Assembly: GCA_023259175.1 (NCBI GenBank)
Contig: JAHFQV010000023.1
Location: 1 to 45,663 of the forward strand
Source: Oxalobacteraceae bacterium
GTDB lineage: Bacteria; Pseudomonadota; Gammaproteobacteria; Burkholderiales; Burkholderiaceae_D
Length of the DNA stretch: 45,663 nucleotides
Direction: 5' to 3'
Shown: positions 24,401 through 42,755 of the stretch, one piece after another
Numbering within the stretch: the first letter of the stretch is position 1
Layout: each line of letters opens with the position of its first letter
Program-made: the position numbers and the translations under genes
Notes under the pieces: model-generated
The model's database searches: none
What the model saw: the letters and a program-made list of their open reading frames with translations, nothing else
Told to the model about the DNA's origin: nothing

Positions 24401-25223
24401 ATAGCAGCCGTATTTGCGGCACGGCTGCGCCTAAAGTAAAACGCAAATTGAGATAAGCGCGCCATAAAACAAATAGCAAAACAGCGCTCAAACCAATAAA
24501 AAATATCCGCAAATGAATTGCAATTGAAGCGCTGCGCTTCACATCATCGGCGATGCGTGTCTCCATCATCCTATGGAATTCTGCAATCGGCAACATGACC
24601 TGGGCTTTTACCTTTTGATATGCGCCATCATTCAAGCTGGCATGAGCGGCTTGCGCAAGCTCGGCCTTATTGGCGAGATTCGAATCATAAAGGCGAATCG
24701 CTTCACGTTCGATATGCTCTAAAGTTCGCGCTCTTTGCAGCGCCAAATTAATTTGCGCGAATTCATCCGCAGTCACGTTTGTTTGGCCCAGCATTTCCAG
24801 TAAAGAGCTGGTTTGCCCTGTCGAAGCAAGCGTAGATTTTCGGTCGGACAATACGAGATCCCAATAAATCGTGTCGTAGTCCAGAGGGCGCGCCAACTTG
24901 CCATCTCGAATATCTAAAATTTCTTGATAATAGCGCTTATACACAGGGTCGCCTGTGCTGATGTAAGTACGCGCCATACGCCACGTATCATCAAGACTTT
25001 GCTTTAATTCCACCGCCAAAGAATGAGCGCGAAATCGCTGTTCGCTTACTTGAATAAGTTGTTTCTCGGTGTGAACGTAGATGGCGAATGCAATTGGGAA
25101 AACGATTAGCATCGATAAGGCAATCCAAAAACTAGATGCATGACGAGATTGCGGCATGATCGAACGATCACCCGATGCCGCCATCTCGGTATGCGCTAGT
25201 CCTCGATTGATACCCTCAGTCAT
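21444..25223 (-). CDS. GAF-GAF-PAS-GGDEF-EAL cyclic-di-GMP protein
   Basis: A 1259-residue membrane sensor. Membrane segments at about 31-50 and 236-256 flank a helical periplasmic region; then come two GAF-like domains (about 330-490 and 505-662), a PAS domain (about 672-788), GGDEF (about 795-955) and EAL (about 970-1225). GGDEF is intact at 875-879 with a product-inhibition site REGD five residues before it (866-869), so diguanylate cyclase activity is likely. The EAL domain keeps TEALLRW (1001-1007), LELTEGV, DDFGTGYSSLSYL and AEGVEN, so phosphodiesterase activity is also possible. The net effect cannot be told from sequence. GAGG precedes ATG 25223. It converges on pfkA with a 42-base overlap. 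Confidence 0.93.
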   Translation of the reverse strand: MTEGINRGLAHTEMAASGDRSIMPQSRHASSFWIALSMLIVFPIAFAIYVHTEKQLIQVSEQRFRAHSLAVELKQSLDDTWRMARTYISTGDPVYKRYYQEILDIRDGKLARPLDYDTIYWDLVLSDRKSTLASTGQTSSLLEMLGQTNVTADEFAQINLALQRARTLEHIEREAIRLYDSNLANKAELAQAAHASLNDGAYQKVKAQVMLPIAEFHRMMETRIADDVKRSASIAIHLRIFFIGLSAVLLFVLWRAYLNLRFTLGAAVPQIRLLLNRLGRGDFSESIVVPGGAEHSVLGLLSLAQQALARIDTQRRDAEIRNQRLTQFYTVLSQCNKAIVRSRTEEELFQQICRDTVQYAGIKMAWVSVLDLEAHHIKAIAAEGEGTQAVTTSVFSMQDIANFENESFYAAIRDGRPYWCQDMMDETIATTWHDLGSRFGWQAAASIPLFRSGAIYGSFNLYAGTAYAFDEEIQTLLVELAMDLSFALNRFELEASRQRSRQLDAVRSFMLERINSATPIDLFFDDVAQYIESIIPKSMCSILLMDKEGQHVRIASARSLPPEFHEVVEGMEVAEGVGACVHAMFTGQRTIIDDTMTHPNWAKLRPLAEQLKVKACWSQPIRSSSNPILGAVAVYFESSTKVEHAYLVLLEMVAHFLAIAIEKHQAQDNLNKLSQAVEQSPNSIIITDADAHIEYVNAAFMTKTGRSMQEVLGQRPSIMQSGKTPLLTYEEMWEALRHGDHWEGEVINRHVDGTEYTELAHISPVRDVNGEITHFLSVQEDITDKRITEERIQYLAHYDVLTGLPNRALLDERARFSITSAKRGNASLGMIFLDLDHFKNINDSLGHSTGDALLVELAKRLRETLREGDTISRLGGDEFIFLLPNVDEMGAEKVAEKLLYAVNQPFQFGRYDLNVSASMGIAVFPDDGEDLESLLKNADTAMYRAKKDGRNRFRFFTQEMQARSGRHLELVNALRHALERNEFRILYQPQINLLTGEVIGTEALLRWIHPELGSVSAAEFIPVAEETGLILQIGEWVLQNAVQQTRLWHDMGWTNLGIAVNLSVIQFRHSDLPGTVSQILQEAGLAPQFLDLELTEGVAMVDPPGAIAIMKDLNDRGIRISIDDFGTGYSSLSYLKKFRVSKLKIDQSFVRDINSDPEDRAIVSAVISMAHSLGLSTIAEGVENSAQLQFLRDKACDEVQGFYFSKALSPDEFCVFMQTPVNTQVAQGHAQNHPPSHLHAVPMDNDLIAKTDSNIATSL

Positions 25224-29808: not shown

Positions 29809-29884
29809 TGGTAGGCCGTGCGGGATTCGAACCTGCGACCAACGGATTAAAAGTCCGCTGCTCTACCAGCTGAGCTAACGACCC
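29809..29884 (-). tRNA. tRNA-Lys (anticodon TTT), copy 1
   Basis: The minus strand reads GGGTCGTTAGCTCAGCTGGT..., 76 bases with encoded CCA. The anticodon loop CTTTTAA gives anticodon TTT at 29849-29851, and the T arm contains GGTTCGAATCC. It is identical to the copy at 30001-30076. Confidence 0.97.
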
Positions 29885-29942
29885 AAAACTTTTCGACGCT
29901 CGCCTTGCAAACACTAGGCTAACATCCTTACCTGTTACAAAT

Positions 29943-29972
29943 AAAAAGGACTTAGATTTTCACCTAAGTCCT
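29943..29972 (-). terminator. Terminator between the two tRNA-Lys genes
   Basis: A perfect 9-bp stem, AGGACTTAG (29947-29955) with CTAAGTCCT (29964-29972) and an 8-base loop. On the minus strand it is followed by TTTTT, so it ends transcription from the tRNA at 30001-30076 before the next tRNA. Confidence 0.82.
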
Positions 29973-30000
29973 CATTAATCCGTCATAACGACTATATTCG

Positions 30001-30076
30001 TGGTAGGCCGTGCGGGATTCGAACCTGCGACCAACGGATTAAAAGTCCGCTGCTCTACCAGCTGAGCTAACGACCC
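30001..30076 (-). tRNA. tRNA-Lys (anticodon TTT), copy 2
   Basis: 76 bases identical to copy 1, starting 192 bases further along; anticodon at 30041-30043 and CCA encoded. The flanking sequences differ from those of copy 1, so this is an old duplication of the gene alone. Confidence 0.97.
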
Positions 30077-30129
30077 GAAAGAACGAGATTATAGAATGCC
30101 TCAGCCTTCCTGTCAATTATGACCCCAGA

Positions 30130-30891
30130 TTATTTTGTGAGTGAGAGCCTGTTTTTGGCTGCCTGCGCTGCATCGCTACCTGGAAATTGCGCGATGATAG
30201 CTTCCAAAATCTTACGGCTTTCCTTTTTGTCTTTCAACTCCAATTGGCAGTTCGCCATATTGAGCATCGCATCAGCCGCCTTGGGATGGTCGGGGAAATT
30301 TTTCAATAAGGCCTGCAAACTCAGCAAGGCATTTTTCCAGTCCCTCTGCGCATAGTAGGCATTGCTTAGCCAATATTGTGCTTGGCTATTGAAGATCGAG
30401 CTAGGATAATTCAAAGAAAAGGCGGCAAATGCGGTCGCCGCGTTGGGAAATTGCCCAGCCTTATACATCGCCAATGCCCCGTCAAAAGCGCGCTGTTCAA
30501 TTTGATCGACGACGACCTCCTGCCCATTGATACTTACTTTTTGCGGCTCCAAAGCGCGCAAACGGCGGTCTAAATCGACATAAAAGTCTTGCTGCCGTTT
30601 TTGCGCGTTCGCCAAATCATTCACCAGCACTTCGATTTGTCCACGTAGACCCGCAATCTCGCTACGCAATTGCTCGTTTTGGTTATTCAATTCCAAAACG
30701 TTCATTTTGTCTGCTTTTTCCTCCAATTTGGCGTCTAGTTTTGCGCTCAAGGCAGCCACTTTGGTACGCAAATCAAGTATCGCTTTGCGTGCTTCATCAT
30801 CGTCAAATAAACCAGCGCTGGCAAAAGTGGGCAGCAAAGCACACAGCAGAATTGCCCGCTTTGCTTGATTAATGAATGTAAGATATTTCAT
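30130..30891 (-). CDS. cpoB: Cell division coordinator CpoB (YbgF)
   Basis: CpoB is a periplasmic Tol-Pal partner that links outer-membrane constriction with peptidoglycan synthesis. The 253-residue product has a signal peptide ending TFASA before GLFDDDEARKAI, a coiled coil at about 40-105 (trimerisation region), and TPR repeats at about 130-250 (AMYKAGQFPNAATAFAAF, YWLSNAYYAQRDWKNALLSL, AADAMLNMANCQLELKDKKES). AGGG precedes the ATG. It is the last gene of the tol-pal cluster, but a terminator-like hairpin separates it from pal, and its 5' region holds an 11-bp tandem repeat (30943-30971). Confidence 0.93.
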   Translation of the reverse strand: MKYLTFINQAKRAILLCALLPTFASAGLFDDDEARKAILDLRTKVAALSAKLDAKLEEKADKMNVLELNNQNEQLRSEIAGLRGQIEVLVNDLANAQKRQQDFYVDLDRRLRALEPQKVSINGQEVVVDQIEQRAFDGALAMYKAGQFPNAATAFAAFSLNYPSSIFNSQAQYWLSNAYYAQRDWKNALLSLQALLKNFPDHPKAADAMLNMANCQLELKDKKESRKILEAIIAQFPGSDAAQAAKNRLSLTK

Positions 30892-30973
30892 GGGCTTGCC
30901 CTCTTTGAGCGAATAAAAAAATCAGCGGATCAGCAAATCGGCAAATTTTGTCGAAATTTTGTCGAAATTTTCT

Positions 30974-31017
30974 AAAAAAAAAGACTCTGCAGCATAACAC
31001 TGCAAAGCCCCTTTTTT
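30974..31017 (-). terminator. Terminator-like hairpin between pal and cpoB
   Basis: GACTCTGCAG (30983-30992) pairs with CTGCAAAGCC (31000-31009) with two wobble or mismatch positions. Poly-A stands on one side and poly-T on the other, so it could work in either direction. It would end or reduce transcription from pal into cpoB. Confidence 0.65.
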
Positions 31018-31038
31018 ACTAGCTTGAAGTACTAAATT

Positions 31039-31569
31039 TTATTGATAAACGATGTCGGAACGACGATTTTCAGCCCAAGAAGCTTCGTCACTGCCCATCG
31101 CTTTTGGCTTTTCCTTACCCAAGGAAACTGCTTCTACTTGAGTCTCAGAAACGTTGTACACAGCCAAAGCTTTACGCACGGCTTCTGCACGTTTTTGACC
31201 CAAAGCGATATTGTACTCACGGCCACCGCGTTCATCGGTATTACCTTGCACTAAAATTTTACGCGCTTTGTTCGTGACCAAATATTTAGCGTGGGCTTCG
31301 ATCAAGGATTTGAATTCGTCTTTGATGACATAGCTATCGTAGTCGAAATAAACACTGCGTTTCGCCAATGCACCAACGGTCAAAGGATCAACTTCTGGCG
31401 CTTTTACTGTCTCTACTTTGTATGGATCGGCCTTAGGCGTTTCCTTAACGATAGGCTTTTCTTCGACCTTCACTGGATCTTCCAACTTAACCGGTGTAGT
31501 GCAAGCAGTTAGCAAAGCAAAACTAGTCAACATTAAGGCCAATGTTTTTGAAACTGATGTAAAACGCAT
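31039..31569 (-). CDS. pal: Peptidoglycan-associated lipoprotein Pal
   Basis: Pal anchors the outer membrane to peptidoglycan and is loaded at the septum by the Tol motor. The 176-residue product has lipobox LTAC (Cys23), a charged Pro/Lys/Glu linker (30-60), and an OmpA-like peptidoglycan-binding domain with YFDYDSYVIKDEFKSLIEAH and the signature NTDERGGREYNIALGQKRAEAV. AGGAG precedes the ATG. It follows tolB after 81 bases. Confidence 0.97.
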   Translation of the reverse strand: MRFTSVSKTLALMLTSFALLTACTTPVKLEDPVKVEEKPIVKETPKADPYKVETVKAPEVDPLTVGALAKRSVYFDYDSYVIKDEFKSLIEAHAKYLVTNKARKILVQGNTDERGGREYNIALGQKRAEAVRKALAVYNVSETQVEAVSLGKEKPKAMGSDEASWAENRRSDIVYQ

Positions 31570-31650
31570 GTCTTTCTCCTGTAAATATGTCTAAATAAGT
31601 CTAAAACTGCAATGCAATGGCAAATTATAACCGAAATAGAGGGAAAACCA

Positions 31651-32928
31651 CTATTTCATCAAAGGTCCCCAAGTCGGCTCGCGAATTTCGCCTGCCTGCA
31701 GGCTAAGCTTTTGCTTCAATTTGCCGTCGGTGGAAACCACGCCTAGCGTACCGCGCCTGCCTTGCTGGGTCGCGTAGAGTACGTAGCGACCATTAGGGGC
31801 AAAACTTGGATACTCGTCCCGCGTGGTATCGGACAGCTTAAGTTCTTGTCCGTTCACTAAATCAAGTGAATAAACTTGATCACCACCTTCACGACGGGAG
31901 ATAAAAACCAGCATATTACCATCGGGTGAAATGCGCGGCGAAATATTGTAATTTCCTTTGAAGGTAACACGCTTCACTTCTTCGCCATTGGCATTCATGC
32001 GATAAATTTGCGGGCCGCCACTACGATCACTGACAAAATAAATGCTTTGCCCGTCAGGCGAAAAACGCGCTTCAGTTTCGATCCCATTGGTCTGGGTCAA
32101 ACGACGTAAGCCCGTGCCATCAGCATTGATCAAATACACTTGCGAAATCGCATCGCGTGACAAAGAAATCAAAAGCTGCGAGCCATCAGGTGACCATGAA
32201 GGTGCCGAATTATTTCCCTTAAAGCTCGCTACCGTACTGCGTTGTCCCGTCATTAAATTTTGAATGTAGATAATCGGCTTTTTCAGCTCCATCGAAACAT
32301 AGGCGATCTTAGTGCCATCGGGTGACCAAGTGGGCGACAAGATCGGCTCTTTGGAGGTCAGTGCCACTTGCACGCCTTCACCATCGGCATCGGCAATTTC
32401 CAAACGAAATTCGCTACCTGCTTTGGTCACGTAAGCGATACGAGTGGAAAAAACACCGGGCACGCCCAATAATTTCTCAAAAATATCGTCGGCGATTTTA
32501 TGTCCCGTTAAACGCATTCTCTGTGGTGGCGTGTCCATCGCAAAACCCGAGAGCAAACTCCCTTTGAACAGATCATATAATTTGTAACGCACTTCAAAAC
32601 GAGCATCGGCTTTTTTGTGAACGCTACCGACCACCAAAACGTCAGCCCCTTTTGCCTTCCATACGGGATAGTCGATGACTGTGCTATCGGACACTGCGCC
32701 GCCCACTTCGATTAATTTAAAATAGCCACTACGATTGAGGTCATCACGAACAATCGACGAAACCAATTGCGGCGATAAATCTTCATCGGAAAAACTGGCG
32801 ATGAGGATAGGGAGTTGCCCCGACCCTACACCCGAACCTTCAATTTTGAGCTGCGCATAAACGCTAGCCTGTGCCATCACACTGAAAAGAAAACCAAAAA
32901 CAATTTTCAGAAAAAAACGATTCTTCAT
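31651..32928 (-). CDS. tolB: Tol-Pal system propeller protein TolB
   Basis: TolB is periplasmic and shuttles between Pal and TolA. The 425-residue product has a signal peptide (cleavage near SVYAQ), an N-terminal alpha/beta domain (about 30-170) and a six-bladed propeller with repeated [45 protein letters not shown] and [10 protein letters not shown] blades. The SD AAGGAT overlaps the end of tolA and the gap is 6 bases, so translation is coupled. Length and domain order are normal. Confidence 0.97.
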
Positions 32929-32934
32929 GGAGAT

Positions 32935-33759
32935 TTAATCCTTCATTCTATGCTTATAATTAAAACTGGGCGGCGCTACCCCGGTCGATTTTTCTTTCGG
33001 AAAGGGGACTGAATTTTCGATCGCCGACGCAATCGCTTGGTCAAAAGCGGGAATGCCCGACGAACTCAGCAGTTTCACAGGCCCCCTCAGGGTGCCATCG
33101 GGAAAAAGATTAATTTGAAATTCGACTGTCGGATTATTCGAGGAATTATCTGAGCTCACGTAGGTTTTGTTATTCGACTTAATTTTTTCGCGTATCAGAT
33201 TTGCATACGTTGCGTCACCGCGATTATTGCCTGTCGATTTAAGGGCATCCCCCAAAATACTAGCATTCGCTTTCACTGCCTGACCGTTGAGACGCTTCAG
33301 ATCATCTGCGAATAATTTTTCTTTAATCGCATTTTCCTTGGCCAGTTTTTTCTTGTCTGCCTCGTCCTTCAATATTTTTTCTTTCTTTATTTTTTCTTCG
33401 GCGAGTTTCTCTAATTCTTTTTTCTTCACGAGTTCACGTTCTTCTTTGAGCGCTTTTGCTTCGAGTAGCTTACGTTTTTTTTCTTGCTCTAAAGCGATAT
33501 CGGGCTCTTCCTCTTTGCGCTGTACTTTCACTGGCTCCGCTTCTTGCACGATCACTTTCGGTTCGATTGGTTCAGCCTGCGCCGCCTGCCGCACCGTCAT
33601 GTCCCAGACCTCGGCCTCAACTGCAGTCGATTCTCGATTTTGCCATTGCACGCCAAACCATAAAAACCCGAGCAAAACGAGATGCACCAAGCCTGCCAAG
33701 CTAATTGAGGCCCAAGAAAACGCATCTTCATTCGCATTCATTCGCATTACATCAGACAT
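32935..33759 (-). CDS. tolA: Tol-Pal inner-membrane protein TolA
   Basis: TolA transmits the TolQR motor force to TolB-Pal. The 274-residue product has one membrane segment (about 18-38), a long Lys/Glu/Ala-rich helix (about 85-165) and a C-terminal TonB-like domain (about 185-274: VEFQINLFPDGTLRGPVKLLSSSGIPAFDQAIASAI). In the membrane segment the His of the SHLS motif is kept (His26), but the Ser four residues before it is Ala22. TolA normally follows tolR directly; here tamA and tamB stand between. A 14-bp tandem duplication lies just upstream of the ATG. Confidence 0.92.
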   Translation of the reverse strand: MSDVMRMNANEDAFSWASISLAGLVHLVLLGFLWFGVQWQNRESTAVEAEVWDMTVRQAAQAEPIEPKVIVQEAEPVKVQRKEEEPDIALEQEKKRKLLEAKALKEERELVKKKELEKLAEEKIKKEKILKDEADKKKLAKENAIKEKLFADDLKRLNGQAVKANASILGDALKSTGNNRGDATYANLIREKIKSNNKTYVSSDNSSNNPTVEFQINLFPDGTLRGPVKLLSSSGIPAFDQAIASAIENSVPFPKEKSTGVAPPSFNYKHRMKD

Positions 33760-33761
33760 TA

Positions 33762-33786
33762 TTAGTACACCATTGTTAGTACACCA
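33762..33786. repeat. 14-bp tandem duplication before tolA
   Basis: TTAGTACACCA occurs at 33762-33772 and 33776-33786, joined by TTG. On the minus strand this doubles a GGTG-containing stretch between the tamB stop and the tolA ATG, so it may offer two alternative ribosome sites or be a scar of rearrangement. Confidence 0.75.
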
Positions 33787-33794
33787 CTTTTACC

Positions 33795-36700
33795 TCAATT
33801 AAACGAGAAACTATAGCGCACATCGAGTGCATTATCATTACCTTTACGTCCAACCAAACGCAGTCGCCGACTCCACTGCCAACTCAAACTCAAGGCATTA
33901 CTTGCGTCCGATACGCCGCGCTCCACCGACAGTACCAAGCCCGGTTTGACATGTAGCCGGCCTGTCACTACATTTTCGTTGGCCGATGCGCCTACCGAAA
34001 TAGCACCCGCCACGGTTTGACTGGGTAACTTAGAAAACAAACCGTGTTCGGGCGGGCCAACCGTCAAGCTATCGAAGCCAAGTCCGCGCACCCAGGTAGC
34101 AGAAGACTCGCGACTCCCATCTCCCCCTAAAATCGCCCCCGCCGCCGACAACAATGCGGAAATATCGGTACTACCATTTTGTTCTGACTCGCGACCAAAC
34201 ACGAGCCAAGAAATTTTCTCATTATCCGGCACATTCGGCTCCGACACCAAGCGCACCTGTGGATTCGCTACGCTTCCGATGATGTCTACGCCCGCCTCCA
34301 CTTGCAAGCCTTTACGGAGCGCACGAATATTCAAACTAGGATTATTCGCAGCACCATGAAAATCTAAAATCCCGCGTTCAATGCTCAGCTGCTGCCCATA
34401 GCCTTCGTACACCCCGCCATCGGTGGCGATTCTGCCATTGGCAATCACGCTTTTGCCATCACTACTTTTAAGCCGCAGACTACCGGATAAAGCGGTATTC
34501 AAACCTCGCCCAACAAAAATAAAACGTGAGCCCATATCGACCGTTAAATCCAGCCGCGTTTTCAAACCCACCTTGTCGACACTTTGCTCTTCATCCGATT
34601 CGCTTGTCTTCGCGCTAGCGATCACCACGTCATCAGAAAGGCTAGGCGGCGGCAGTTTTGGCAATCGAAAAAACCCTGCGTCTGCACGCAAATTCCCTGT
34701 CAAAGCCCAAGCTTTATCCTGCTGCGCGATTTTGGCCTGTCCACTCATGACAAGCCAACGATCACGTCGCTGCAACAAGGGAAATTGCGTCCATTGAGCC
34801 GTAATACCGCCGGATTGGGCACGCCAATTCACATCACCACTGGCGGAAAATTGTCCTTGTGATTGTGATTGTGATTGTGCTTGCGTTTGTGTTTGTGATT
34901 GGCTCCAGCTTAAATCTTTAAAGCGTTCATGTTCAACAGGTCGGGTGATGGTCTGAGTAAACACTAATTTTTGCAGTGAGAGCGTATCCTCAGTCAAGGC
35001 GGCTTTCAGTTCGCCGTTAGGGAATAATAGCCCCTCAGATGCGAATGCCAATTCCAAGCGATGGCCTTCAATCTGCGCCTTGTACTTGGGCTTAAAAAGC
35101 TGGCCGCCCAACTGCGCATTCACATCCACACTTCCCTTCATCGTGAATTCTGGGCTTATTTGACTGGCCAGCCATTGTAATTCAGGTAGATGTACTTGCA
35201 TCTCACCCTGAATCGGAGTCTGGGCATCGAGTATCCAACGATCTTGGCCTTTCCGAATCTCACTTTGCAGATGGGCTTGCCAAGTCCCTAATCGCTGACC
35301 ACTGGCATTCAAATCAACCGCAACACGCTCGGCGTTTGGTTTGCCAGTTTGCGCTTGCGAAGTTAACTGTAAGTGCAAAGTTTCGATCCCCAGTGGCATC
35401 GTTTTTCCCGTACCATCGACATCACGTACCCCGATATCGCCGCCCTGTCTTTGCAAGTTCAAGGCTGCACGTAGGTGCTCCTTGAATTGAAAATCCCAAG
35501 TCAAACCCAAACGCAAATCCCCAACCAACGTCGGCTGTGGCTTCCACAGTGATAGCAAAGCAAGCGCTTGCAAGTCATCAAATTGCCCTTGCGAACTCAA
35601 ATTTTGCGGTGTCCATTCTAGCTGTTTTAGACTGAGCTTACCGAGTCGTCCTTGCAATACCGCCGCGCCCATCACGACCGCTTGACGATGAATGTTCAAT
35701 TCAAATGGGCTTTCCAAACGAAGGTCAGGCTCCACTTTTGCATTGGCACTGGTTTGACGATCTTGCGCCAAAAATCCATGCAAATTTAATTGCGTAACCC
35801 GACCTTTCCAGCCCAAATCTTGCCAAGCTGCACCCAGGATTCCACCGACCGCATCTAGGCTTAATTGGTGCTGGCGATCGAATTGAATTTCACTGTGAAT
35901 TTGATGCGCATCACGGGTGCCGCCGACTTCAATCTGCGCGCTCTCAAAATAAGTTCGCAGCTTCGCGGTATTTCCCTCGCTCGCAGTCGAAATTGATGTA
36001 GTTGCGGCTGGCGTCAAGTCCGACTGCAATTGCGCGAGCTTGAGTTTTAGCGCTAACACACCCTGACTACCCGCGCCTAGCGTAATCTGCCCTTGCGCAT
36101 GTGCAAGCCGCCGCCCATTTGAGAACACTAAATTCTCAGCCGCGAGATGAAGATCACTCTCGAAGGCAGAAAGTTTTCCCTTTAAAGACGCATCTATTTC
36201 TGCGCTACCATTCACGGGAAAACCGGTCTGCGCGGTCAATGCGGTTAAATCATTTCCTTTAAAATGTAGCTTAAGGATATCCTCGCCGTCACCCAGTTGT
36301 CCTTGCATTTCTAAATGATTGTCACCTAGGTGAAGCGCAGTTTGTTCAAATTTCAAACTACGAGCTTCCTTCCACTGGGAGTGCAATTGTCCTTCCAAAT
36401 TTCGCCCCTGCCAAACACCACTGAGGCTAGTCACATTCACTTGCAGTTGCCATGCCGGATCGCTTTGTCCTTCTATCGACAATTCCGCATCCACACGTCC
36501 CACCGGCAGGGCAAACCATTGTGCTGGGTTAAAGTGAGTCAATTTTCCGTTCAGTTTGAAGCGATGCGTGTCATTTAATTCGACCTGGGCTTGACCCGTT
36601 AAAGTCGATTGATCAGCACTCAATTCAAATTGATCTAAGAACAAACGGGCACCACCGCCCACGGTCTGCAAATCGATATGGGCGCGCGTCAGCAGACGGG

Positions 36701-38069
36701 TACGCGAGTCTTGTAATTTAGCTTGAAATTCGATGCGACTCTTGCCTTGATTTTGAATCTGAACTTGCCCCTCAACATCGGTATGGCGTACCCGGCTATC
36801 AATCGTCGCAAGATTAAGATGCCGCACATCGAAATGCGCTTCAACTTGAGGAAATTGATCTTTGCTAAAATCGGCACTCATTTTTCCACCGATTTTTCCT
36901 AGCGCGCTTTCCTGGCCATTTTTCTTGCTCGATTGCGCCCCAAGCTCCGCCGAAAAATCAGTCAAATCGAGCTTCTGATTGCGCCACACAAGCTGCGCAC
37001 TTAGTTGGCTCAGTGGTAGACCATTCTGATCCAAGGATGCGGCCTTCGCATTGCGCATTTGCAGCACACCCGACAAATGCAATAAGCGATCACGCTCTTC
37101 TTGTTGCAGTTTCAAATCCAAATCGAGTAAGGCATGTGGTGCGTTTGCCGCCAACAAATGCGGATCAAACTGGCGCATATGCGTCTCTAGCTTTTGCAGC
37201 ACATGGGCTGAAAACAGGTGCACCTCAAGTGCCAATTGCGCTTGAGCCGAACTCAAAATACGCATTTCTTTCGTTTGCGCAGAGTTCGATTTTGCGTCCG
37301 TCACGGGCACATTATTTGTTAGGATTTCTTCTGCGCTTTTCACGGAAAATTGGAAATGATCGAGGGTGCCGCGTGCATGTCCAACTAGATGCAAAGCAGG
37401 TAGCTCTTCTTGCGCTCGATTTTGATAATCGACATTCGCGTCCAGTGCAAATGGGCGCTGACTGGCGAGCTTTGCGTGGCCCGACAACTGTCCCCATTCC
37501 GAAGCGAACGCCAACGTCGCTTGATATTGATCGGAACTCGCCACTACACTTCCATGCAGCTTTTCAAAGCGCAGGGGTGGACTCGCCTTCGCTGCCTTCT
37601 CCACTATAAACAAGCTCGCTTGAGTGATCATCAACTGCTTTACATTAAACGCAAAGGGGGCTTGCAAATGAACTGGCAATTGGGCGGGCGTATCGTCTTG
37701 GGTGACATGAATCTGCAAGGCGGCGGCCTTCAGCACATCGATTTGTAGCGCACTTGAAAATAGGGAAGAAATTGACCAGTCCAATTGCACATCCTGTGCA
37801 TGAACGACTAATTTTTTGCTTTCGTAATCTAAATTTTTGATACGTAAATGATCGGCTAAGCGGCCTTCAACACCGTTAAGTTGAAGCCTACCCGGCGAGA
37901 CTTCTGTCACCAACATCAAGACTAAGCGACTTCCCGTTTGCGTCCAGACACTTAAAAAAACCAGGCCTATGATCAATCCAAGCACAGCAGCAATCAAGAT
38001 CAAACCGCGTTTAAGGCCGCGCCCTTTTACACTGGCTTTTTCTGGTGGCGGGGTGATGGCGACTGTCAT
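33795..38069 (-). CDS. tamB: Translocation and assembly module protein TamB
   Basis: TamB is an AsmA-like bridge from inner to outer membrane that works with TamA in outer-membrane protein assembly and in phospholipid transport. The 1424-residue product has an uncleaved N-terminal anchor (about 21-41, GLILIAAVLGLIIGLVFLSV), a very long beta-rich periplasmic part with amphipathic strands, and the conserved C-terminal DUF490 domain (about 1060-1424: GGVYEGYGQQLSIERGILDFHG, NPSLNIRALRKGLQVEAGVDI, WLVFGRE). Length is typical. It starts 15 bases after tamA and ends 35 bases before tolA. A Ser-Gln/Thr-Gln repeat near residues 1055-1072 comes from a hexanucleotide repeat. Confidence 0.94.
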   Translation of the reverse strand: MTVAITPPPEKASVKGRGLKRGLILIAAVLGLIIGLVFLSVWTQTGSRLVLMLVTEVSPGRLQLNGVEGRLADHLRIKNLDYESKKLVVHAQDVQLDWSISSLFSSALQIDVLKAAALQIHVTQDDTPAQLPVHLQAPFAFNVKQLMITQASLFIVEKAAKASPPLRFEKLHGSVVASSDQYQATLAFASEWGQLSGHAKLASQRPFALDANVDYQNRAQEELPALHLVGHARGTLDHFQFSVKSAEEILTNNVPVTDAKSNSAQTKEMRILSSAQAQLALEVHLFSAHVLQKLETHMRQFDPHLLAANAPHALLDLDLKLQQEERDRLLHLSGVLQMRNAKAASLDQNGLPLSQLSAQLVWRNQKLDLTDFSAELGAQSSKKNGQESALGKIGGKMSADFSKDQFPQVEAHFDVRHLNLATIDSRVRHTDVEGQVQIQNQGKSRIEFQAKLQDSRTRLLTRAHIDLQTVGGGARLFLDQFELSADQSTLTGQAQVELNDTHRFKLNGKLTHFNPAQWFALPVGRVDAELSIEGQSDPAWQLQVNVTSLSGVWQGRNLEGQLHSQWKEARSLKFEQTALHLGDNHLEMQGQLGDGEDILKLHFKGNDLTALTAQTGFPVNGSAEIDASLKGKLSAFESDLHLAAENLVFSNGRRLAHAQGQITLGAGSQGVLALKLKLAQLQSDLTPAATTSISTASEGNTAKLRTYFESAQIEVGGTRDAHQIHSEIQFDRQHQLSLDAVGGILGAAWQDLGWKGRVTQLNLHGFLAQDRQTSANAKVEPDLRLESPFELNIHRQAVVMGAAVLQGRLGKLSLKQLEWTPQNLSSQGQFDDLQALALLSLWKPQPTLVGDLRLGLTWDFQFKEHLRAALNLQRQGGDIGVRDVDGTGKTMPLGIETLHLQLTSQAQTGKPNAERVAVDLNASGQRLGTWQAHLQSEIRKGQDRWILDAQTPIQGEMQVHLPELQWLASQISPEFTMKGSVDVNAQLGGQLFKPKYKAQIEGHRLELAFASEGLLFPNGELKAALTEDTLSLQKLVFTQTITRPVEHERFKDLSWSQSQTQTQAQSQSQSQGQFSASGDVNWRAQSGGITAQWTQFPLLQRRDRWLVMSGQAKIAQQDKAWALTGNLRADAGFFRLPKLPPPSLSDDVVIASAKTSESDEEQSVDKVGLKTRLDLTVDMGSRFIFVGRGLNTALSGSLRLKSSDGKSVIANGRIATDGGVYEGYGQQLSIERGILDFHGAANNPSLNIRALRKGLQVEAGVDIIGSVANPQVRLVSEPNVPDNEKISWLVFGRESEQNGSTDISALLSAAGAILGGDGSRESSATWVRGLGFDSLTVGPPEHGLFSKLPSQTVAGAISVGASANENVVTGRLHVKPGLVLSVERGVSDASNALSLSWQWSRRLRLVGRKGNDNALDVRYSFSFN
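34855..34904. repeat. Hexanucleotide repeat inside tamB
   Basis: On the plus strand, TGTGAT-type 6-base units (TGTGAT, TGTGCT, TGCGTT, TGTGTT) follow each other about eight times, encoding alternating Gln with Ser, Thr or Ala on the minus strand. Length changes by slippage would stay in frame. Confidence 0.8.
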
Positions 38070-38084
38070 AACGAAGCTAGGAAT

Positions 38085-39980
38085 TCAAAAGGCAAAGGCA
38101 ATGGAAAAATCCAAACGAAAACGCTTGGTCTGCCTTCCATAAGCAAGATCAAGCGCAACTGGCCCCGCCGGTGTTTTCCAACGCAAGCCGGCACCATAGC
38201 CGCGCTGAGTCTGTATTGAATGCAAACTCGGTGCGACCGCACCCACATCATAAAAAACAGCCGCGCCTATACTCTCGCTGGACCAATGTAAATATTCCGC
38301 GCTGGCGGTACCCATCACAGGCCCGCCGAGGACCGCCGCTCCGGCGCGAATACCAATACTTTGATAGGCATAGCCGCGCACGCTATTGCTACCACCAATG
38401 CGAAATAAGTAGTCTTCAGGAATGCCGTCGATTTTTGAAGAAAACACTCTGCCCGCTTCGAATCGAAGTTGCAAAGAATCGCGTTTGGCGATAGGAAACC
38501 ATTGTTGATATTTGGTGTAAGCCCGGATAAAACTCTGATTACTGAGTAAAGAATGATGCGCCCCTGAAAAATCGAGCTGCAAACGATGTCCACTTCGCGG
38601 TGCGAGTAAATCATCTACATCCCGCCAGGTCCAACCCGTACTCAATACCGTTGCATGACTTTTTCTGTGCACTTGGGTCGTCACGTCGCGATTTTCCGTC
38701 ACGCTTTCCTGCATAAAATTGCCCCCCAAACGCTGTTCTACATGCCCACGCGTCGTCGTGCGCAAGACACCGAAAGCATAACGTGCTTGGGTAACGCCTT
38801 CTATTTTTGATTGGTCCCAAAGCACACCAAAGGAATCGAGCTGGTGATGGTCGCTCGGTGGTAGATAAATTTGCGCATAAGCGAGCTGGCGCTTTTGTTC
38901 TATACGTAAGGCGCTTTGTAAGTCCCATACTTGATTGGCGAAATTTCGGTCACGATAAGTAACTTCAGCATGTAAGCCTGTGTTCGAGCTTTCACCCAAA
39001 CTCAATCCCAAATCCCGCGCCTGTCGCTCATTGAGGGAAACCTCAATCGGCAAGGCTTGCGCTTTGCTGCTGTCGGGCTCAACATTAAATCCAACCGTAG
39101 AAAAATAGGCCGAATTTTGCAATGCACTTTGAAATTCCAAGAGTTTACGACTGGTATAAGCCTGTCCTTTTTTAGGTGGATCAAAGCGATCAATTAACCA
39201 GAGTGGATAGCGTTCCAAGCCTGTCACCTGCAAATCACCAAAATAAAATTCAGCACCGCTATCAAGATTCAAGATTAAGCTAACGCTGTGATTTTCGGCA
39301 TCCACTTCAGCACGGCTATCGACCCATGTCGCCCCCATGTAAAGTTCACTCTTAAGGCTTTCCATCAAATGGGTTTTCGCCTTACTCCAGTCATCTTGCC
39401 GAAACGGCTTTTCCAATGACAAAGTCCATGCCTTGATGAGATTTTCACGGCGTTGAATGGCAGAGTCCTTACCCGCATTTGCCGCGTCTTCCAGTGCGCC
39501 CGTAAAATGAATCTGTACTTCCTTGATGCTACTGCGTTGGTTCGGGCTAACACTGACCTGTATTAGATTTTGCCCGCCCTCATTGGCATTACCACTATCA
39601 GCGCCATCACGATCAAGCACGTCGAATTTGATTTGCGGTGAAAAATAGCCTTCAGTCGCTAAAATTTGCTCGATATCGTTTTGCAGCTTACGCAAAAGTC
39701 CCGGCGTTTGAATTTGCGCTTCAGCCTGCCTAGAAAACACGGCAATATGCTCTTCCAACAGTGCCATCAATTCCGCATCAAATTTTTCGAGACGAAAACG
39801 GCTTAAATTTTGATTTGAGCTTGCCACCTGCTCATCTGGCTTATTAACGTTTAAGGGCGGGGCACTTTGCGCCCCTACACTAGCAAACATGCACAACAAA
39901 ATGCCGCTGGCGCAGTGACGAAGAATAAAAGCAGCGTCACCCCTAAAAAATCCAGCATTCAATCTGCGCTTTCGCATCAT
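38085..39980 (-). CDS. tamA: Translocation and assembly module protein TamA (Omp85 family)
   Basis: TamA is the outer-membrane barrel of the TAM complex. The 631-residue product has an N-terminal export signal (ILLCMFASVGAQSA), POTRA domains in about residues 60-320, and a 16-strand-type barrel at about 325-631. The Omp85 signature FRIGGSNSVRGY lies at 526-537 and the chain ends in Phe, as barrel substrates of Bam do. Its ATG overlaps the tolR stop as ATGA (39980-39977), which couples it firmly to the tol operon. tamB follows after 15 bases. Confidence 0.94.
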   Translation of the reverse strand: MMRKRRLNAGFFRGDAAFILRHCASGILLCMFASVGAQSAPPLNVNKPDEQVASSNQNLSRFRLEKFDAELMALLEEHIAVFSRQAEAQIQTPGLLRKLQNDIEQILATEGYFSPQIKFDVLDRDGADSGNANEGGQNLIQVSVSPNQRSSIKEVQIHFTGALEDAANAGKDSAIQRRENLIKAWTLSLEKPFRQDDWSKAKTHLMESLKSELYMGATWVDSRAEVDAENHSVSLILNLDSGAEFYFGDLQVTGLERYPLWLIDRFDPPKKGQAYTSRKLLEFQSALQNSAYFSTVGFNVEPDSSKAQALPIEVSLNERQARDLGLSLGESSNTGLHAEVTYRDRNFANQVWDLQSALRIEQKRQLAYAQIYLPPSDHHQLDSFGVLWDQSKIEGVTQARYAFGVLRTTTRGHVEQRLGGNFMQESVTENRDVTTQVHRKSHATVLSTGWTWRDVDDLLAPRSGHRLQLDFSGAHHSLLSNQSFIRAYTKYQQWFPIAKRDSLQLRFEAGRVFSSKIDGIPEDYLFRIGGSNSVRGYAYQSIGIRAGAAVLGGPVMGTASAEYLHWSSESIGAAVFYDVGAVAPSLHSIQTQRGYGAGLRWKTPAGPVALDLAYGRQTKRFRLDFSIAFAF

Positions 39981-40420
39981 TTGGTCGCAAGTCCAACTCG
40001 GTGAATTCCAAGTTTTTTAGCTTCTGAAATCACTTGTATGACCTCGTCGTATTTAATGTCTTTATCGGCAGACACTAAGACCGACAAATCCGGTTGCGTG
40101 CGGTGATATTCGCGCAGTTTTTCCATCAGATCGCGACGATTCGCTGCGGTTTCTTTTGATATTTGTTGTGCGATACCTTTACTCGTTCCGTGTCGATTAA
40201 TACTAATCGTGGCAGAAGCATTTGGGCTCAAGGCGATTTCGATAAAATCGGGCGGCGCTTGGGTCGATTGCCCGGCGGTCGGCAGGTTGATGACGCTAGG
40301 ATTCGTCATGGGCGCTGCCACCATAAAAATAACCAGCAAAACCAACATCACGTCGATATAGGGAACGACATTGATTTCAGCTTTAAATTTGCGTTTACGT
40401 TCGCCACGAAGTGAACTCAT
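39977..40420 (-). CDS. tolR: Tol-Pal motor protein TolR (ExbD family)
   Basis: TolR forms, with TolQ, the proton-driven stator of the Tol system. The 147-residue product has a single membrane segment (about 20-40) with the essential Asp23 in VVPYIDVMLVLLVIF, and a periplasmic domain (VLVSADKDIKYDEVIQVISEAKKLGIHRVGLAT). It follows tolQ after 15 bases and overlaps tamA by four bases. All key features are present. Confidence 0.96.
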   Translation of the reverse strand: MSSLRGERKRKFKAEINVVPYIDVMLVLLVIFMVAAPMTNPSVINLPTAGQSTQAPPDFIEIALSPNASATISINRHGTSKGIAQQISKETAANRRDLMEKLREYHRTQPDLSVLVSADKDIKYDEVIQVISEAKKLGIHRVGLATK

Positions 40421-40435
40421 TTTCCTGCCGTTAGC

Positions 40436-41131
40436 TTAACGCGATTGCCTTTGCAAAATATTGGTAAACTCTTCGATGAAGCTCTCGAAACGGATCGCTA
40501 AGCGATCAATGTCATGGGAAAAACGGTTGTAGGCCAGGACCGCAGGAATCGCGGCAAATAAACCGATTGCGGTCGCCACTAAAGCTTCGGCGATACCGGG
40601 CGCCACCGCTGCCAAAGTCGCTTGCTGCACATTTGCCAAACCACGGAAGGCATTCATGATGCCCCATACCGTACCGAATAAACCGATGTAGGGAGACACC
40701 GAACCCACCGAAGCCAAGAAGGAAAGATGCGACTCTAAAATATCCATTTCACGTTGATAAGAAGCACGCATCGCCCTTCGAGCGCCGTCGAGCATCGCAC
40801 CCGCGTCCAAACTCGCTTTATTCGCGGCTTTTACTTTATGGTATTCGTTCATTCCAGCTTCAAAAATACGCTCTAAGGCACCGGATTTATCGCGACTTCC
40901 ACGTCGCTTGTTTAAAGCATTTTGATAGAGGTCAAGCAGGTTTCCACCAGCCCAAAACCCTTTCTCGAAGGCATCCGTTTGCGCACGCGCTTTTTTGATG
41001 GCAAACAGTTTGCTGAAAATATAATTCCAACTCGTCATAGACACGAGCAACAAGCCCGCCATCACGATTTGCACCAACAAAGATGCGCCGGTGATCAAAG
41101 AAAGAAAGGATAAATCTTGAGTGACTGTCAT
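40436..41131 (-). CDS. tolQ: Tol-Pal motor protein TolQ
   Basis: TolQ is the pentameric proton-channel subunit of the Tol motor. The 231-residue product has three membrane segments (about 12-35, 135-160 and 170-195) and the MotA/TolQ/ExbB signature in LASVGSVSPYIGLFGTVWGIMNAF and GIAEALVATAIGLFAAIPAVLAYN. It is 74 bases downstream of ybgC and is the first tol gene proper; a promoter might lie in that gap, but I see none clearly. Confidence 0.97.
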   Translation of the reverse strand: MTVTQDLSFLSLITGASLLVQIVMAGLLLVSMTSWNYIFSKLFAIKKARAQTDAFEKGFWAGGNLLDLYQNALNKRRGSRDKSGALERIFEAGMNEYHKVKAANKASLDAGAMLDGARRAMRASYQREMDILESHLSFLASVGSVSPYIGLFGTVWGIMNAFRGLANVQQATLAAVAPGIAEALVATAIGLFAAIPAVLAYNRFSHDIDRLAIRFESFIEEFTNILQRQSR

Positions 41132-41205
41132 AAAAATTCTAAGAAAATGAAGTGTCGTGTAAAGTGTAACGCTAGGCCTTACGCATCTCGAATGGGGCGA
41201 TGAAG

Positions 41206-41667
41206 CTAAGTCGCGCTCATCGAACTCGCGGCGACGATACGAGCCGCTAAAGTTGGCTCAAGCGGCATCACTCGCCAGTGGGTGCGGTCAACAAAGCAAA
41301 GCGTGATCTGCGCACTGGTTAATCGCTGATCGCCACGCATAATCGTCTGCTCAAGCACCAAAGAGGCACGCCCTAGTTTTTTGACCGCAAGTAGTGAGGC
41401 GAGTTCATCGTCTAAGCTCGCCGGTGCATGATACTCGACATTGCTCGATTTGACGACAAAGAAGCCACCAAATTTCTCCGCCCCTGAGGACGAATCAAAG
41501 TCCATGGTGCGCAACCATTCTGTCCTAGCACGCTCAAAAAATTTGAGGTAATTTGCGTAGAACACGATGCCAGCCGCATCGGTATCTTCAAAATAGACTC
41601 GTATTGGCCAACTAAAGACAAATCCTAGCGCCTTGTCTGCCGATCGATCAAACGTCACCCTACTCAT
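41206..41667 (-). CDS. ybgC: Tol-associated acyl-CoA thioesterase YbgC
   Basis: A hot-dog-fold thioesterase that in other bacteria acts on short- or long-chain acyl-CoA or ACP and is regularly found at the head of tol-pal operons. The 153-residue product has the family motif RVYFEDTDAAGIVFYANYLKFFERARTEWLR with catalytic Asp30. ATG 41667 gives the standard N-terminus; a TTG at 41688 would add seven residues. The ATG lies 8 bases inside the end of the SDR gene, so the two overlap and are likely co-transcribed. Confidence 0.93.
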   Translation of the reverse strand: MSRVTFDRSADKALGFVFSWPIRVYFEDTDAAGIVFYANYLKFFERARTEWLRTMDFDSSSGAEKFGGFFVVKSSNVEYHAPASLDDELASLLAVKKLGRASLVLEQTIMRGDQRLTSAQITLCFVDRTHWRVMPLEPTLAARIVAASSMSAT

Positions 41668-42424
41668 GCGATTGCGCTTCACGCACAATTGCTAAGGGCG
41701 AAAACCCCTGACAGGTCGGCATCATTTCTATGCTATTGATATTGATGTGAGGCGGTTGAGTCGCGATCCAATAGGTGGTTTCAGCAATATCCTCAGCCGT
41801 CAAAGCACTTGCGCCTTGATAGACTTTGGCCGCCGCCGCATCGTCCCCTTTAAAACGCACATTGGAAAACTCAGTGCCACTACACAAGCCCGGTGCAATA
41901 TTGCTGGCTCTGACCCCTGTGCCAATTAAATCCGCACGCAAATTAAGGGTAAATTGCTCGACAAAGGCTTTGGTCGCGCCATAAACATTACCTCCGGGGT
42001 AAGGAGTCGACCCTGCAATCGAGCCGATATTAATGATCAAGCCACGCCGTTTGGCGACCATCGCAGGAAGCAAGGCGCGCGTCATTCTGACCAAACCCTT
42101 GTTATTGGTTTCTATCATGGTCTCCCAATCTTCCAAATTGGCTTGCTGAGCAGGCTGTATGCCCAAAGCCAATCCTGCGTTATTCACCAAAACATCGATA
42201 TCGGCCCATTCTGGCGGCAGCGCGTCAAGCATCGCGGCGATGGAGCGTGGATCACAGACATCTAAGGCCAAAACCAACAAAGCATCACCTAATTCGTCTT
42301 GCAAAACGCGTAATTTATCCATACGCCGCGCGGCGGCAATCACACGATGCCCCTCGCGCACAAATTTGCGCGCCATCGCCGCGCCAAAACCTGAACTCGC
42401 CCCAGTTATCAAAACCAGCATCAT
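41660..42424 (-). CDS. Short-chain dehydrogenase, YdfG-like
   Basis: A 254-residue classical SDR with the NADP(H) loop TGASSGFG (7-14), NNAG (81-84) and the catalytic Ser135, Tyr148, Lys152 (GGNVYGATK). AARR after the second strand fits NADP preference. It is closest to YdfG-type 3-hydroxy-acid/serine dehydrogenases or malonic semialdehyde reductases; the real substrate is unknown. GAGGAG stands before the ATG pair at 42424 and 42421. It overlaps ybgC by 8 bases and therefore seems to head the long envelope operon, though a metabolic gene is not typical there. Confidence 0.87.
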   Translation of the reverse strand: MMLVLITGASSGFGAAMARKFVREGHRVIAAARRMDKLRVLQDELGDALLVLALDVCDPRSIAAMLDALPPEWADIDVLVNNAGLALGIQPAQQANLEDWETMIETNNKGLVRMTRALLPAMVAKRRGLIINIGSIAGSTPYPGGNVYGATKAFVEQFTLNLRADLIGTGVRASNIAPGLCSGTEFSNVRFKGDDAAAAKVYQGASALTAEDIAETTYWIATQPPHININSIEMMPTCQGFSPLAIVREAQSHE

Positions 42425-42755
42425 TTCTCTCCTCAAATACCTAATCTACACCGCAAGACATGAATACCGCAGCACAGCAGCCCAGCAAACCCAAAAGCGC
42501 CATTCTATCTTTTTTTCGCCGAATGCCCTACGACCAAGCTAAGCACTCTCTATATCGGCGCTCTACTGGAATGACATAGAAAAACCATGACACCAGTCTC
42601 GTTCGAAACAAACACGAGCGAGAGCGCTTTAGATTTCTAAGTCACTTCTGTTTTAACTAGGATTTTTTAACAGCCAAGCCGCTTATCATCCGCTTATCAT
42701 CCCATTCACAAGGCAAAAACAGATTTGTCTGAATTGATGTATTGCATTGCAGCAC
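42425..42755. other. Intergenic region with 11-bp tandem repeat
   Basis: No gene is seen between the SDR gene and the glyA promoter. CCGCTTATCAT is repeated exactly in tandem at 42679-42689 and 42690-42700. The promoter of the minus-strand operon must lie at the left of this stretch, but no clear hexamers were found. Confidence 0.5.

Follow-up and report, generated by a model that had tools for sequence, protein, structure and literature searches.

The locus described here raises the question of why the genes of one envelope system should be located inside the operon of another. TamA and TamB serve as a bridge that reaches the outer membrane (their genes, tamA-tamB, are ytfM-ytfN in E. coli), and the Tol-Pal system is a machine that pulls that same membrane inward; both Tol-Pal and the AsmA-like bridges (TamB, YhdP and YdbH) are tied to the lipid balance of the outer membrane. 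The stretch of DNA that we have analysed, referred to below as the window, is the whole of contig JAHFQV010000023.1 from an Oxalobacteraceae bacterium (45,663 nucleotides). In the window, nine intact open reading frames (ORFs), in the order ybgC-tolQ-tolR-tamA-tamB-tolA-tolB-pal-cpoB, run from position 41688 down to position 30130, all of them on the minus strand. The gene order, the strand, the overlap and the gaps that had been given in an initial annotation of the window agree with the ORF coordinates and with the Pfam and NCBIfam matches: tolR and tamA overlap by 4 bases (39977-39980, ATGA), and the gaps are 15 bases between tolQ and tolR, 15 between tamA and tamB, 35 between tamB and tolA, and 6 between tolA and tolB. 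The location of tamA-tamB (tamAB) inside tol-pal is thus a correct observation, and it is lineage-wide, as is seen from the related genomes.

We infer the genus of the window to be Undibacterium, a cultured genus of freshwater bacteria, and a second genus that carries the arrangement (g39) to be Solimicrobium/Sapientia. TamA is present in all 43 Undibacterium genomes, with one TamA per genome besides BamA-type matches and split pieces, and TolB is present in 40 of them. The genes tolQ-tolR-tamA-tamB are found together in 39 of the 43 genomes (22 joined or insert-bearing and 17 split); in genome G031 the arrangement is deduced from tolQ and a piece of tamA that share a contig, and genomes G023, G028 and G033 are too fragmented. 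The junction between tamB and tolA is intact in 22 of the 43 genomes (in G027 as judged from a tamB tail ahead of tolA), carries an insert of 3.6 kb in one (G024), is split in 17, and is unreadable in three (G020, G028 and G033). Among the Undibacterium genomes that are at least 90 percent complete, all 36 have a single TolQ match at E<=1e-45, located beside tamA.

The joined state occurs in U. macrobrachii, U. seohonense, U. flavidum, U. amnicola, U. fentianense, U. nitidum, U. baiyunense and U. terreum, as well as in Solimicrobium silvestre, Sapientia aquatica and three bins (at one locus of this group, L150, the contig stops inside tolA); tolQR-tamAB is found at all five Solimicrobium/Sapientia-type loci. 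Within the flank of approximately 5-6 kb beyond tamB, tolA was not found in U. jejuense, U. sp. TS12, U. pigrum, U. rugosum, U. hunanense, U. umbellatum, U. crateris, U. rivi, U. curvum, U. griseum, U. oligocarboniphilum and U. squillarum. When loci are ranked by a scan with the TamA alignment, 23 Undibacterium loci are among the best 80, with Solimicrobium silvestre, Sapientia aquatica and related Oxalobacteraceae bins coming next. As a side observation on copy number, Undibacterium genome G037 holds a second piece of tamB (L252:4842-5405, 187 amino acids) approximately 4 kb beyond its full-length tamB; the identity of this piece to residues 1122-1297 of the window TamB is 59 percent, the corresponding value for the C-terminal part of the full G037 copy being 58 percent.

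The window is one entire contig of a 233-contig, 4.03-Mb genome, and for this reason an error of assembly or binning might be suspected behind the unusual order. However, 17 other Undibacterium genomes, as well as all four Solimicrobium-type genomes, have the complete nine-gene order on a single contig, with the single-contig genomes G006, G014 and G016 among those that carry it, and the split state too occurs within single contigs (e.g. G037, G021 and G022); we consider an artefact to be so improbable that it can be neglected. The neighbour survey that the initial annotation had called for therefore shows an order that is not limited to one assembly, and the candidate explanation of a single-assembly artefact is rejected.

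The 17 split genomes are informative with regard to which genes are held together. In these genomes SDR-ybgC-tolQ-tolR-tamA-tamB (SDR, short-chain dehydrogenase/reductase) is kept as one block and tolA-tolB-pal-cpoB is located elsewhere; the upstream gene W44348 is kept next to the first block in 17 of 17 genomes and the serine hydroxymethyltransferase gene (W43031) in 15 of 17, while the downstream methyltransferase neighbour of the second block is kept in 14 of 17. Since the neighbours are kept on both blocks, the split stems from a break of the chromosome at the tamB-tolA junction, and not from loss or decay. The constant unit is thus tolQR-tamAB, with tolA being the part that separates, which is a stronger form of the original observation; as the sole break is located between tamB and tolA, it also agrees with a boundary that already existed at this junction. 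Upstream of the displaced tolA, no second tolQR was found (no match above 35 bits within approximately 5 kb, loci L058-L068 and L070-L075). The insert of genome G024 (L042:9100-12700) is located at the same junction and holds genes for a metallo-beta-lactamase-fold protein, an SDR and a TetR protein; it may be a stage on the way to the split, or else a separate event at the same weak point. A reading based on TolB distances, according to which tamAB would be unlinked from tol in 17 genomes, has been rejected, as the fetched regions show tolQR-tamAB intact and tolA-tolB-pal-cpoB displaced; because surveys based on TolB miss the split state, the family and order surveys were repeated with TolQ.

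The number of events that are needed has been read from a tree of six genes of the locus (SDR, TolQ, TolR, TolB, Pal and CpoB; 52 genomes, 1459 columns; ybgC, tolA, tamA, tamB and genomes G020 and G159 left out). The split genomes form one clade (support 100/99), i.e. the split state is accounted for by one change, and G024 is the sister of this clade (97/94). Undibacterium and Solimicrobium are located on one side of a branch (100/100) that separates them from 8 other Burkholderiaceae; since the carriers of tamAB in tol are all on this side, a single insertion suffices. The same split clade is recovered in a TamA tree (for which 19 of the 46 loci L146-L191 were used).

Outside this lineage, we have compared survey lists by eye in a family, an order and a phylum sample, which share genomes. 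In the family sample TamA is present in 127 of 145 genomes. Those with tolQ beside tamA are 8 genomes of Undibacterium and 4 of the Solimicrobium type; none of the other 115 TamA-positive genomes has this adjacency (a TolQ match is missing in one of them), the nearest distance on the same contig there being 45 kb. In the order sample (TamA in 60 of 130 genomes, TolQ in 123 of 130) the adjacency of tolQ and tamA occurs in 0 of 59 genomes besides the window, two of them being without a TolQ match; in the phylum sample (TamA in 82 of 160, TolQ in 156 of 160) it occurs in 0 of 81 others among the matches listed. In all 9 outgroup genomes whose loci were fetched, tolQ-tolR-tolA-tolB-pal-cpoB is unbroken and tamAB is elsewhere; the family survey supports the initial annotation on this point.

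Looser forms of closeness do occur. In three genera of family f59, of the same class as the window (loci L245, L246 and L247), tamAB is located approximately 5-6 kb past cpoB on the same strand; at L245 the intervening genes encode an SDR, a HAD, a methyltransferase, a nucleotidyl transferase and a UDP-sugar dehydrogenase, with one further ORF that has no Pfam match. This closeness of the two systems is independent of that in the window lineage. In the phylum sample tolQ and tamA are 15 kb apart in genome G382 and 21 kb apart in genome G343, and in two genera of family f26 of the order sample (G204 and G290; loci L249 and L250) a distance of 14-15 kb separates tamA from a tolQ further downstream, beside which tolR was not detected. 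Two side observations concern tol genes in other settings: in G046, of Burkholderiaceae genus g5, tolQ (C9:1064-1756) and tolB (C2:285876-287129) are located on separate contigs, possibly another split layout, and a plasmid search with TolR returned 78 records, all of them below 60 percent identity.

The trees of the single proteins indicate that tamAB and the tol genes have had different histories. In the TolB tree, Undibacterium and Solimicrobium are placed with the other Burkholderiaceae (Shimodaira-Hasegawa-like approximate likelihood ratio test, SH-aLRT, 99), whereas in the TamA and TamB trees they are placed with five genomes of the order that are from outside the family (G284, which is Dechloromonas denitrificans, G279, G280, G192 and G182; SH-aLRT 99 in both). 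A grouping of Undibacterium and Solimicrobium with the other Burkholderiaceae is rejected by approximately unbiased (AU) tests for TamA (1.4e-6) and for TamB (3.7e-5), with values of 5.4e-4 and 0.0039 in two narrower tests on TamA; the TamA and TolB tree set with the first AU test was built after 8 of 45 rows had been dropped for their long branches, the TamB tree has 37 rows (G159 and seven far rows excluded), and in the narrower tests 9 of 45 rows were dropped. Identities point in the same direction: the TamA of Zoogloea, Azonexus and Accumulibacter is nearer than that of other Burkholderiaceae, and the closest outside TamA sequences among the best 80 loci are from Zoogloea and related genera (38-43 percent, the range within the family's other genera being 28-39 percent).

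A history without transfer, in which the native tamAB was relocated to the tol operon and diverged rapidly afterwards, would turn the position in these trees into an artefact. Both proteins are indeed fast-evolving, several branches are long, and the other Burkholderiaceae fall into more than one group in both trees; against this stand the agreement of TamA and TamB on the same five outside neighbours and the identity values given above, and we regard such a relocation as rather unlikely. The best reading, though not a certain one, is that TamA and TamB were probably acquired laterally. The consulted parts of a survey of the operon of the translocation and assembly module (TAM) (PMC4494059), whose main text does not contain the term "tol", report occasional transfer of TamB. 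Zoogloea- and Thauera-type loci have been considered as donors of a ready-made tolQR-tamAB and rejected, tolQ or tolR matches above 40 bits being absent in L146-L149 and L151-L191. In the fetched flanks of the Zoogloea-, Thauera- and Azoarcus-type loci (L146-L149 and L151-L177) the window TamB had no match; at L146, a PutA-like protein is the upstream neighbour.

With regard to transcription, the lengths of the junctions, measured to the nearest start, are -4 to +33 bases between tolR and tamA across the loci, and 0 to 62 between tamA and tamB, except at L039 and L043, where a tamB start close by was not resolved. The gap between tamB and tolA is 35 bases in the window; it ranges from 59 to 349 in the other joined Undibacterium in which it was readable (20 in number), and from -8 to 18 in the four Solimicrobium types. 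A scan of the region yields 25 sigma-70-like promoter sites against 15.5 (standard deviation 4.1) in shuffled sequences. Ahead of tolA, the last part of tamB holds a 9-of-12 promoter-like site; terminator-like hairpins are seen at the 3' end of tamA (7 pairs) and at the end of tamB (5 pairs), though the terminator-like sites of the region (21 against 17.7) are at chance level, for which reason none of them is good evidence for a boundary. Before tolA, the promoter scores compared across genomes are slightly raised, to 8.44 against 7.75 for the split genomes and to 8.5 against 7.67 for the four Solimicrobium types (with tolQ and pal up too); these rises are hints only.

The tight gaps from tolR through tamA to tamB, the absence of a promoter excess before tamA and tamB and the chance level of the terminators make the co-transcription of tolQR-tamAB plausible. 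The initial annotation had proposed co-transcription for the whole series of genes; the proposal stays plausible for tolQR-tamAB, and is weakened for tolA by the looser gap and by the split in 17 genomes. The fixed stoichiometry that was expected from it is not borne out as far as TolA is concerned, the link being variable in length and broken in a whole clade. A promoter and terminator that would isolate tamAB had also been considered; the scans give no good evidence for such a pair.

Based on these results, we propose the following account, towards which, taken as a whole (a captured tamAB that is co-expressed with tolQR and, in one clade, was later split from tolA), we lean at a little better than an even chance. 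A laterally acquired tamA-tamB pair would have entered the operon by a single insertion, at the boundary of tolR and tolA, in an ancestor shared by Undibacterium and Solimicrobium/Sapientia, and the TamA of the inserted locus would now be the sole TamA found. The pair would form the 3' half of one transcription unit, tolQ-tolR-tamA-tamB, in which tolR and tamA often overlap by stop and start codon, and the bridge would be produced along with the Tol motor. The second unit would be tolA-tolB-pal-cpoB, set off by a longer gap and probably with a promoter of its own. A rearrangement in one Undibacterium clade would later have parted the two units. The benefit, if there is one, would lie in a matched dosage of two systems of outer-membrane homeostasis, and not in a physical complex. 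Of these elements, the order and intactness of the genes, the single gain and the single split on the tree and the discordant histories of TamA and TamB are observed, while co-transcription and the matched dosage are inferences.

Several points weigh against this account. TolB alone does not give Undibacterium as one clade, which only the six-gene tree does (one of the trees behind this result took 12 of the 41 Undibacterium); the groups of the narrower AU tests were chosen after the tree was known, and the AU rejections in general partly reflect the scatter of the other Burkholderiaceae in the TamA and TamB trees; a second TamB was sought in the window genome only. In the promoter scan across genomes, the scores are near those of shuffled sequences before nearly all genes, and slightly below them before tamA and tamB. 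Furthermore, the pairs SDR-ybgC, tolB-pal and pal-cpoB are also kept wherever both genes are found, so that tolR-tamA is retained no better than the background (the counts are of loci, some genomes being counted twice, and only where both genes are in the fetched stretch). As the neighbouring pairs are equally kept, linkage by itself is no proof of coupling, and is compatible with simple operon inertia.

These last points lead to a different explanation, in which the capture was neutral: tamAB would have landed in a well-expressed operon and would stay there since an exit without a promoter is costly, the tie to Tol-Pal amounting to shared transcription. The equal conservation of the neighbouring pairs, the missing promoter excess before tamA and tamB, and the single gain and single split on the tree are all in its favour. 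A weak hint to the contrary is given by the closeness of tamAB to tol-pal that is found independently in the three f59 genera; moreover, both systems act on the lipid balance of the outer membrane, their lipid roles being described in the consulted parts of PMC7391070 and PMC12977461. We find neutral capture possible, if on the unlikely side, and a functional benefit of the co-expression of tolQR and tamAB, as in our preferred account, is possible as well.

A closer relationship between the two systems had been suggested by the initial annotation, which read the arrangement as a joint envelope machine. In its explicit form, the proton-driven TolQR motor would act directly on TamB (or on TamA), with tamAB occupying the usual place of tolA. 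This idea is in line with the persistence of tolQR beside tamAB rather than tolA in the 17 split genomes, and with the similar topology of TamB and TolA, each of which has one N-terminal transmembrane (TM) helix followed by a long periplasmic part. According to the consulted parts of PMC12204202 and PMC12583513, known transducers engage TolQR-type motors by way of a TM histidine that is part of an SHLS motif, and residues S18 and H22 of TolA are the ones described with TolQ (PMC12583513). Counting only the rows that reach the N-terminus with a clear TM stretch (G027 is not included), we have found the TM histidine in 49 of 49 TolA sequences with a detected TM helix, 7 outgroups included, and in 42 of 42 from Undibacterium and Solimicrobium, with no difference between split and joined genomes; any histidine in the TM stretch of TamB is found in 4 of 42 sequences from the same genera and in 0 of 5 outgroups. 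The TM histidine being mostly absent, TamB is unlike a second TolA, and a direct TolA-like role is disfavoured, though other kinds of contact may occur. There is, in addition, one close TolQ per genome, so that the same motor must still serve TolA. In the window genome we have found one TamB match and, with the window TolQ as query, one TolQ match at E<=1e-45; the TolQ profile gives three matches of the TolQ/ExbB family at E<=1e-40 in this genome (G000), of which the tol one alone is among the matches listed. The joint machine has thus gained no positive evidence, and we judge it to be very unlikely.

A more speculative version, to which we give slightly less credit still, is that in Undibacterium and Solimicrobium TolQR would be a shared motor that energises or gates TamB besides TolA, with the delivery of phospholipid and protein to the outer membrane being driven by the proton-powered stator that also drives constriction. 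If this were true, an AsmA-like lipid bridge would gain an energy source, for which no candidate turned up in term searches of the consulted parts of TamB papers, and the split clade would show TamAB as the genetic partner of the motor.

The tolQR-tamAB locus has good experimental value: sister species in the joined and in the split state provide a natural experiment on Tol-Pal and TamAB, where it can be asked whether dosage, timing or contact matters, and whether TolQR must be made together with TolA.

The features of the locus are listed in the table below. TolQ, TolA, TolB, Pal and CpoB are all above an NCBIfam cut-off, while TolR, TamA (193.9 of 625 bits), TamB (208.7 of 825) and YbgC (for TIGR02799 only) are below the NCBI equivalog cut-offs; the identities of these four are settled by position, Pfam scores and, for TamA, structure. 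The TamA equivalog model looks narrow, since no more than 11 of the 82 phylum-sample genomes with TamA pass its cut-off. The AlphaFold2 model of TamA (mean predicted local distance difference test 82.4, predicted template modelling score 0.66) has an Omp85 barrel preceded by three POTRA-like units, as we read its DSSP string. In a fold search, the top five PDB entries are TamA structures of Pseudomonas and E. coli. TamB has a hydrophobic N-terminal TM helix and a C-terminal TamB domain (PF04357, residues 1067-1423).

Features of the tol-pal/tamAB locus in the window
Feature	Position	Strand	Basis or remark
SDR (YdfG-like)	41660..42436	-	PF00106 1.9e-51; NF007829 381.2 bits, cut-off 411
ybgC (thioesterase)	41206..41667	-	TIGR02799 139.7 bits, cut-off 141.35; TIGR00051 above cut-off
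Candidate sigma-70-like promoter before tolQ	41136..41163	-	TTTACA-16-TAGAAT, 10/12 matches
tolQ	40436..41131	-	TIGR02796 277.8 bits, cut-off 221
tolR	39977..40420	-	PF02472 99 bits, over cut-off; TIGR02801 117.1, cut-off 127.3
tamA	38085..39980	-	PF01103; NF047950 193.9 bits, cut-off 625; best PDB matches are TamA by sequence and fold
tamB (1424 aa)	33795..38069	-	PF04357 128.3 bits, cut-off 22.4; PDB TamB matches
tamB-tolA junction (35 bases)	33760..33794		Counterpart of the 3.6-kb insert site in G024 and of the split site in 17 genomes
tolA	32935..33759	-	TIGR02794 70.8 bits, cut-off 59.45; docking His in TM helix
tolB	31651..32928	-	TIGR02800 470.5, cut-off 343.15
pal	31039..31569	-	TIGR02802 133.6, cut-off 125.35
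cpoB	30130..30891	-	TIGR02795 109, cut-off 90.1

The ATG start of ybgC at position 41667 is located inside a longer ORF with a TTG start (41206-41688), and creates an 8-base overlap with the 3' end of the upstream SDR gene; because of this overlap, the SDR gene may be part of the operon too. It adjoins ybgC in 75 of the 75 loci that hold both genes, some genomes being counted twice. At the other end of the locus, two tRNA-Lys(ttt) genes are located just past cpoB (window 29809-30116), with a 12-pair terminator-like hairpin between them and a perfect match to the sigma-70 consensus at 30116-30088. Further along, the window encodes a GAF-PAS-GGDEF-EAL protein of 1259 amino acids (21444-25223); proteins that have it as their best match in the window adjoin tamB or cpoB in some of the split genomes.

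In the searched literature on TamAB, Tol-Pal, Undibacterium and synteny, which consists mostly of titles and abstracts with few subscription journals, the location of tamAB inside tol-pal is not reported. In comparison with the proteobacterial tol-pal operon, the joined state has the same seven genes in the same order and on the same strand, and the motor-docking helix of TolA is kept; it differs in that tamA-tamB is located between tolR and tolA, and in that tolQR is apart from tolA in one clade. Compared with TAM, the tamA-tamB pair has the same build, in that a three-POTRA Omp85 protein is followed, 15 bases further on, by a TamB of 1424 amino acids; what differs is that tamA is co-directional with tolR and overlaps it, that TamA and TamB score below their NCBI equivalog cut-offs, and that the arrangement is absent from the consulted parts of PMC4494059. 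The closeness in family f59 is similar in that tol-pal and tamAB are near each other on one strand, the difference being that its tamAB is located beyond cpoB and not inside the operon. Lastly, the split types of tol-pal in the consulted parts of PMC12204202 are tolQRAB//pal-cpoB and tolQRA//tolB-pal-cpoB, neither of which separates the motor from the transducer, whereas the split in Undibacterium parts tolQR from tolA; a cut between the motor and transducer genes thus extends the catalogue of tol-pal layouts.

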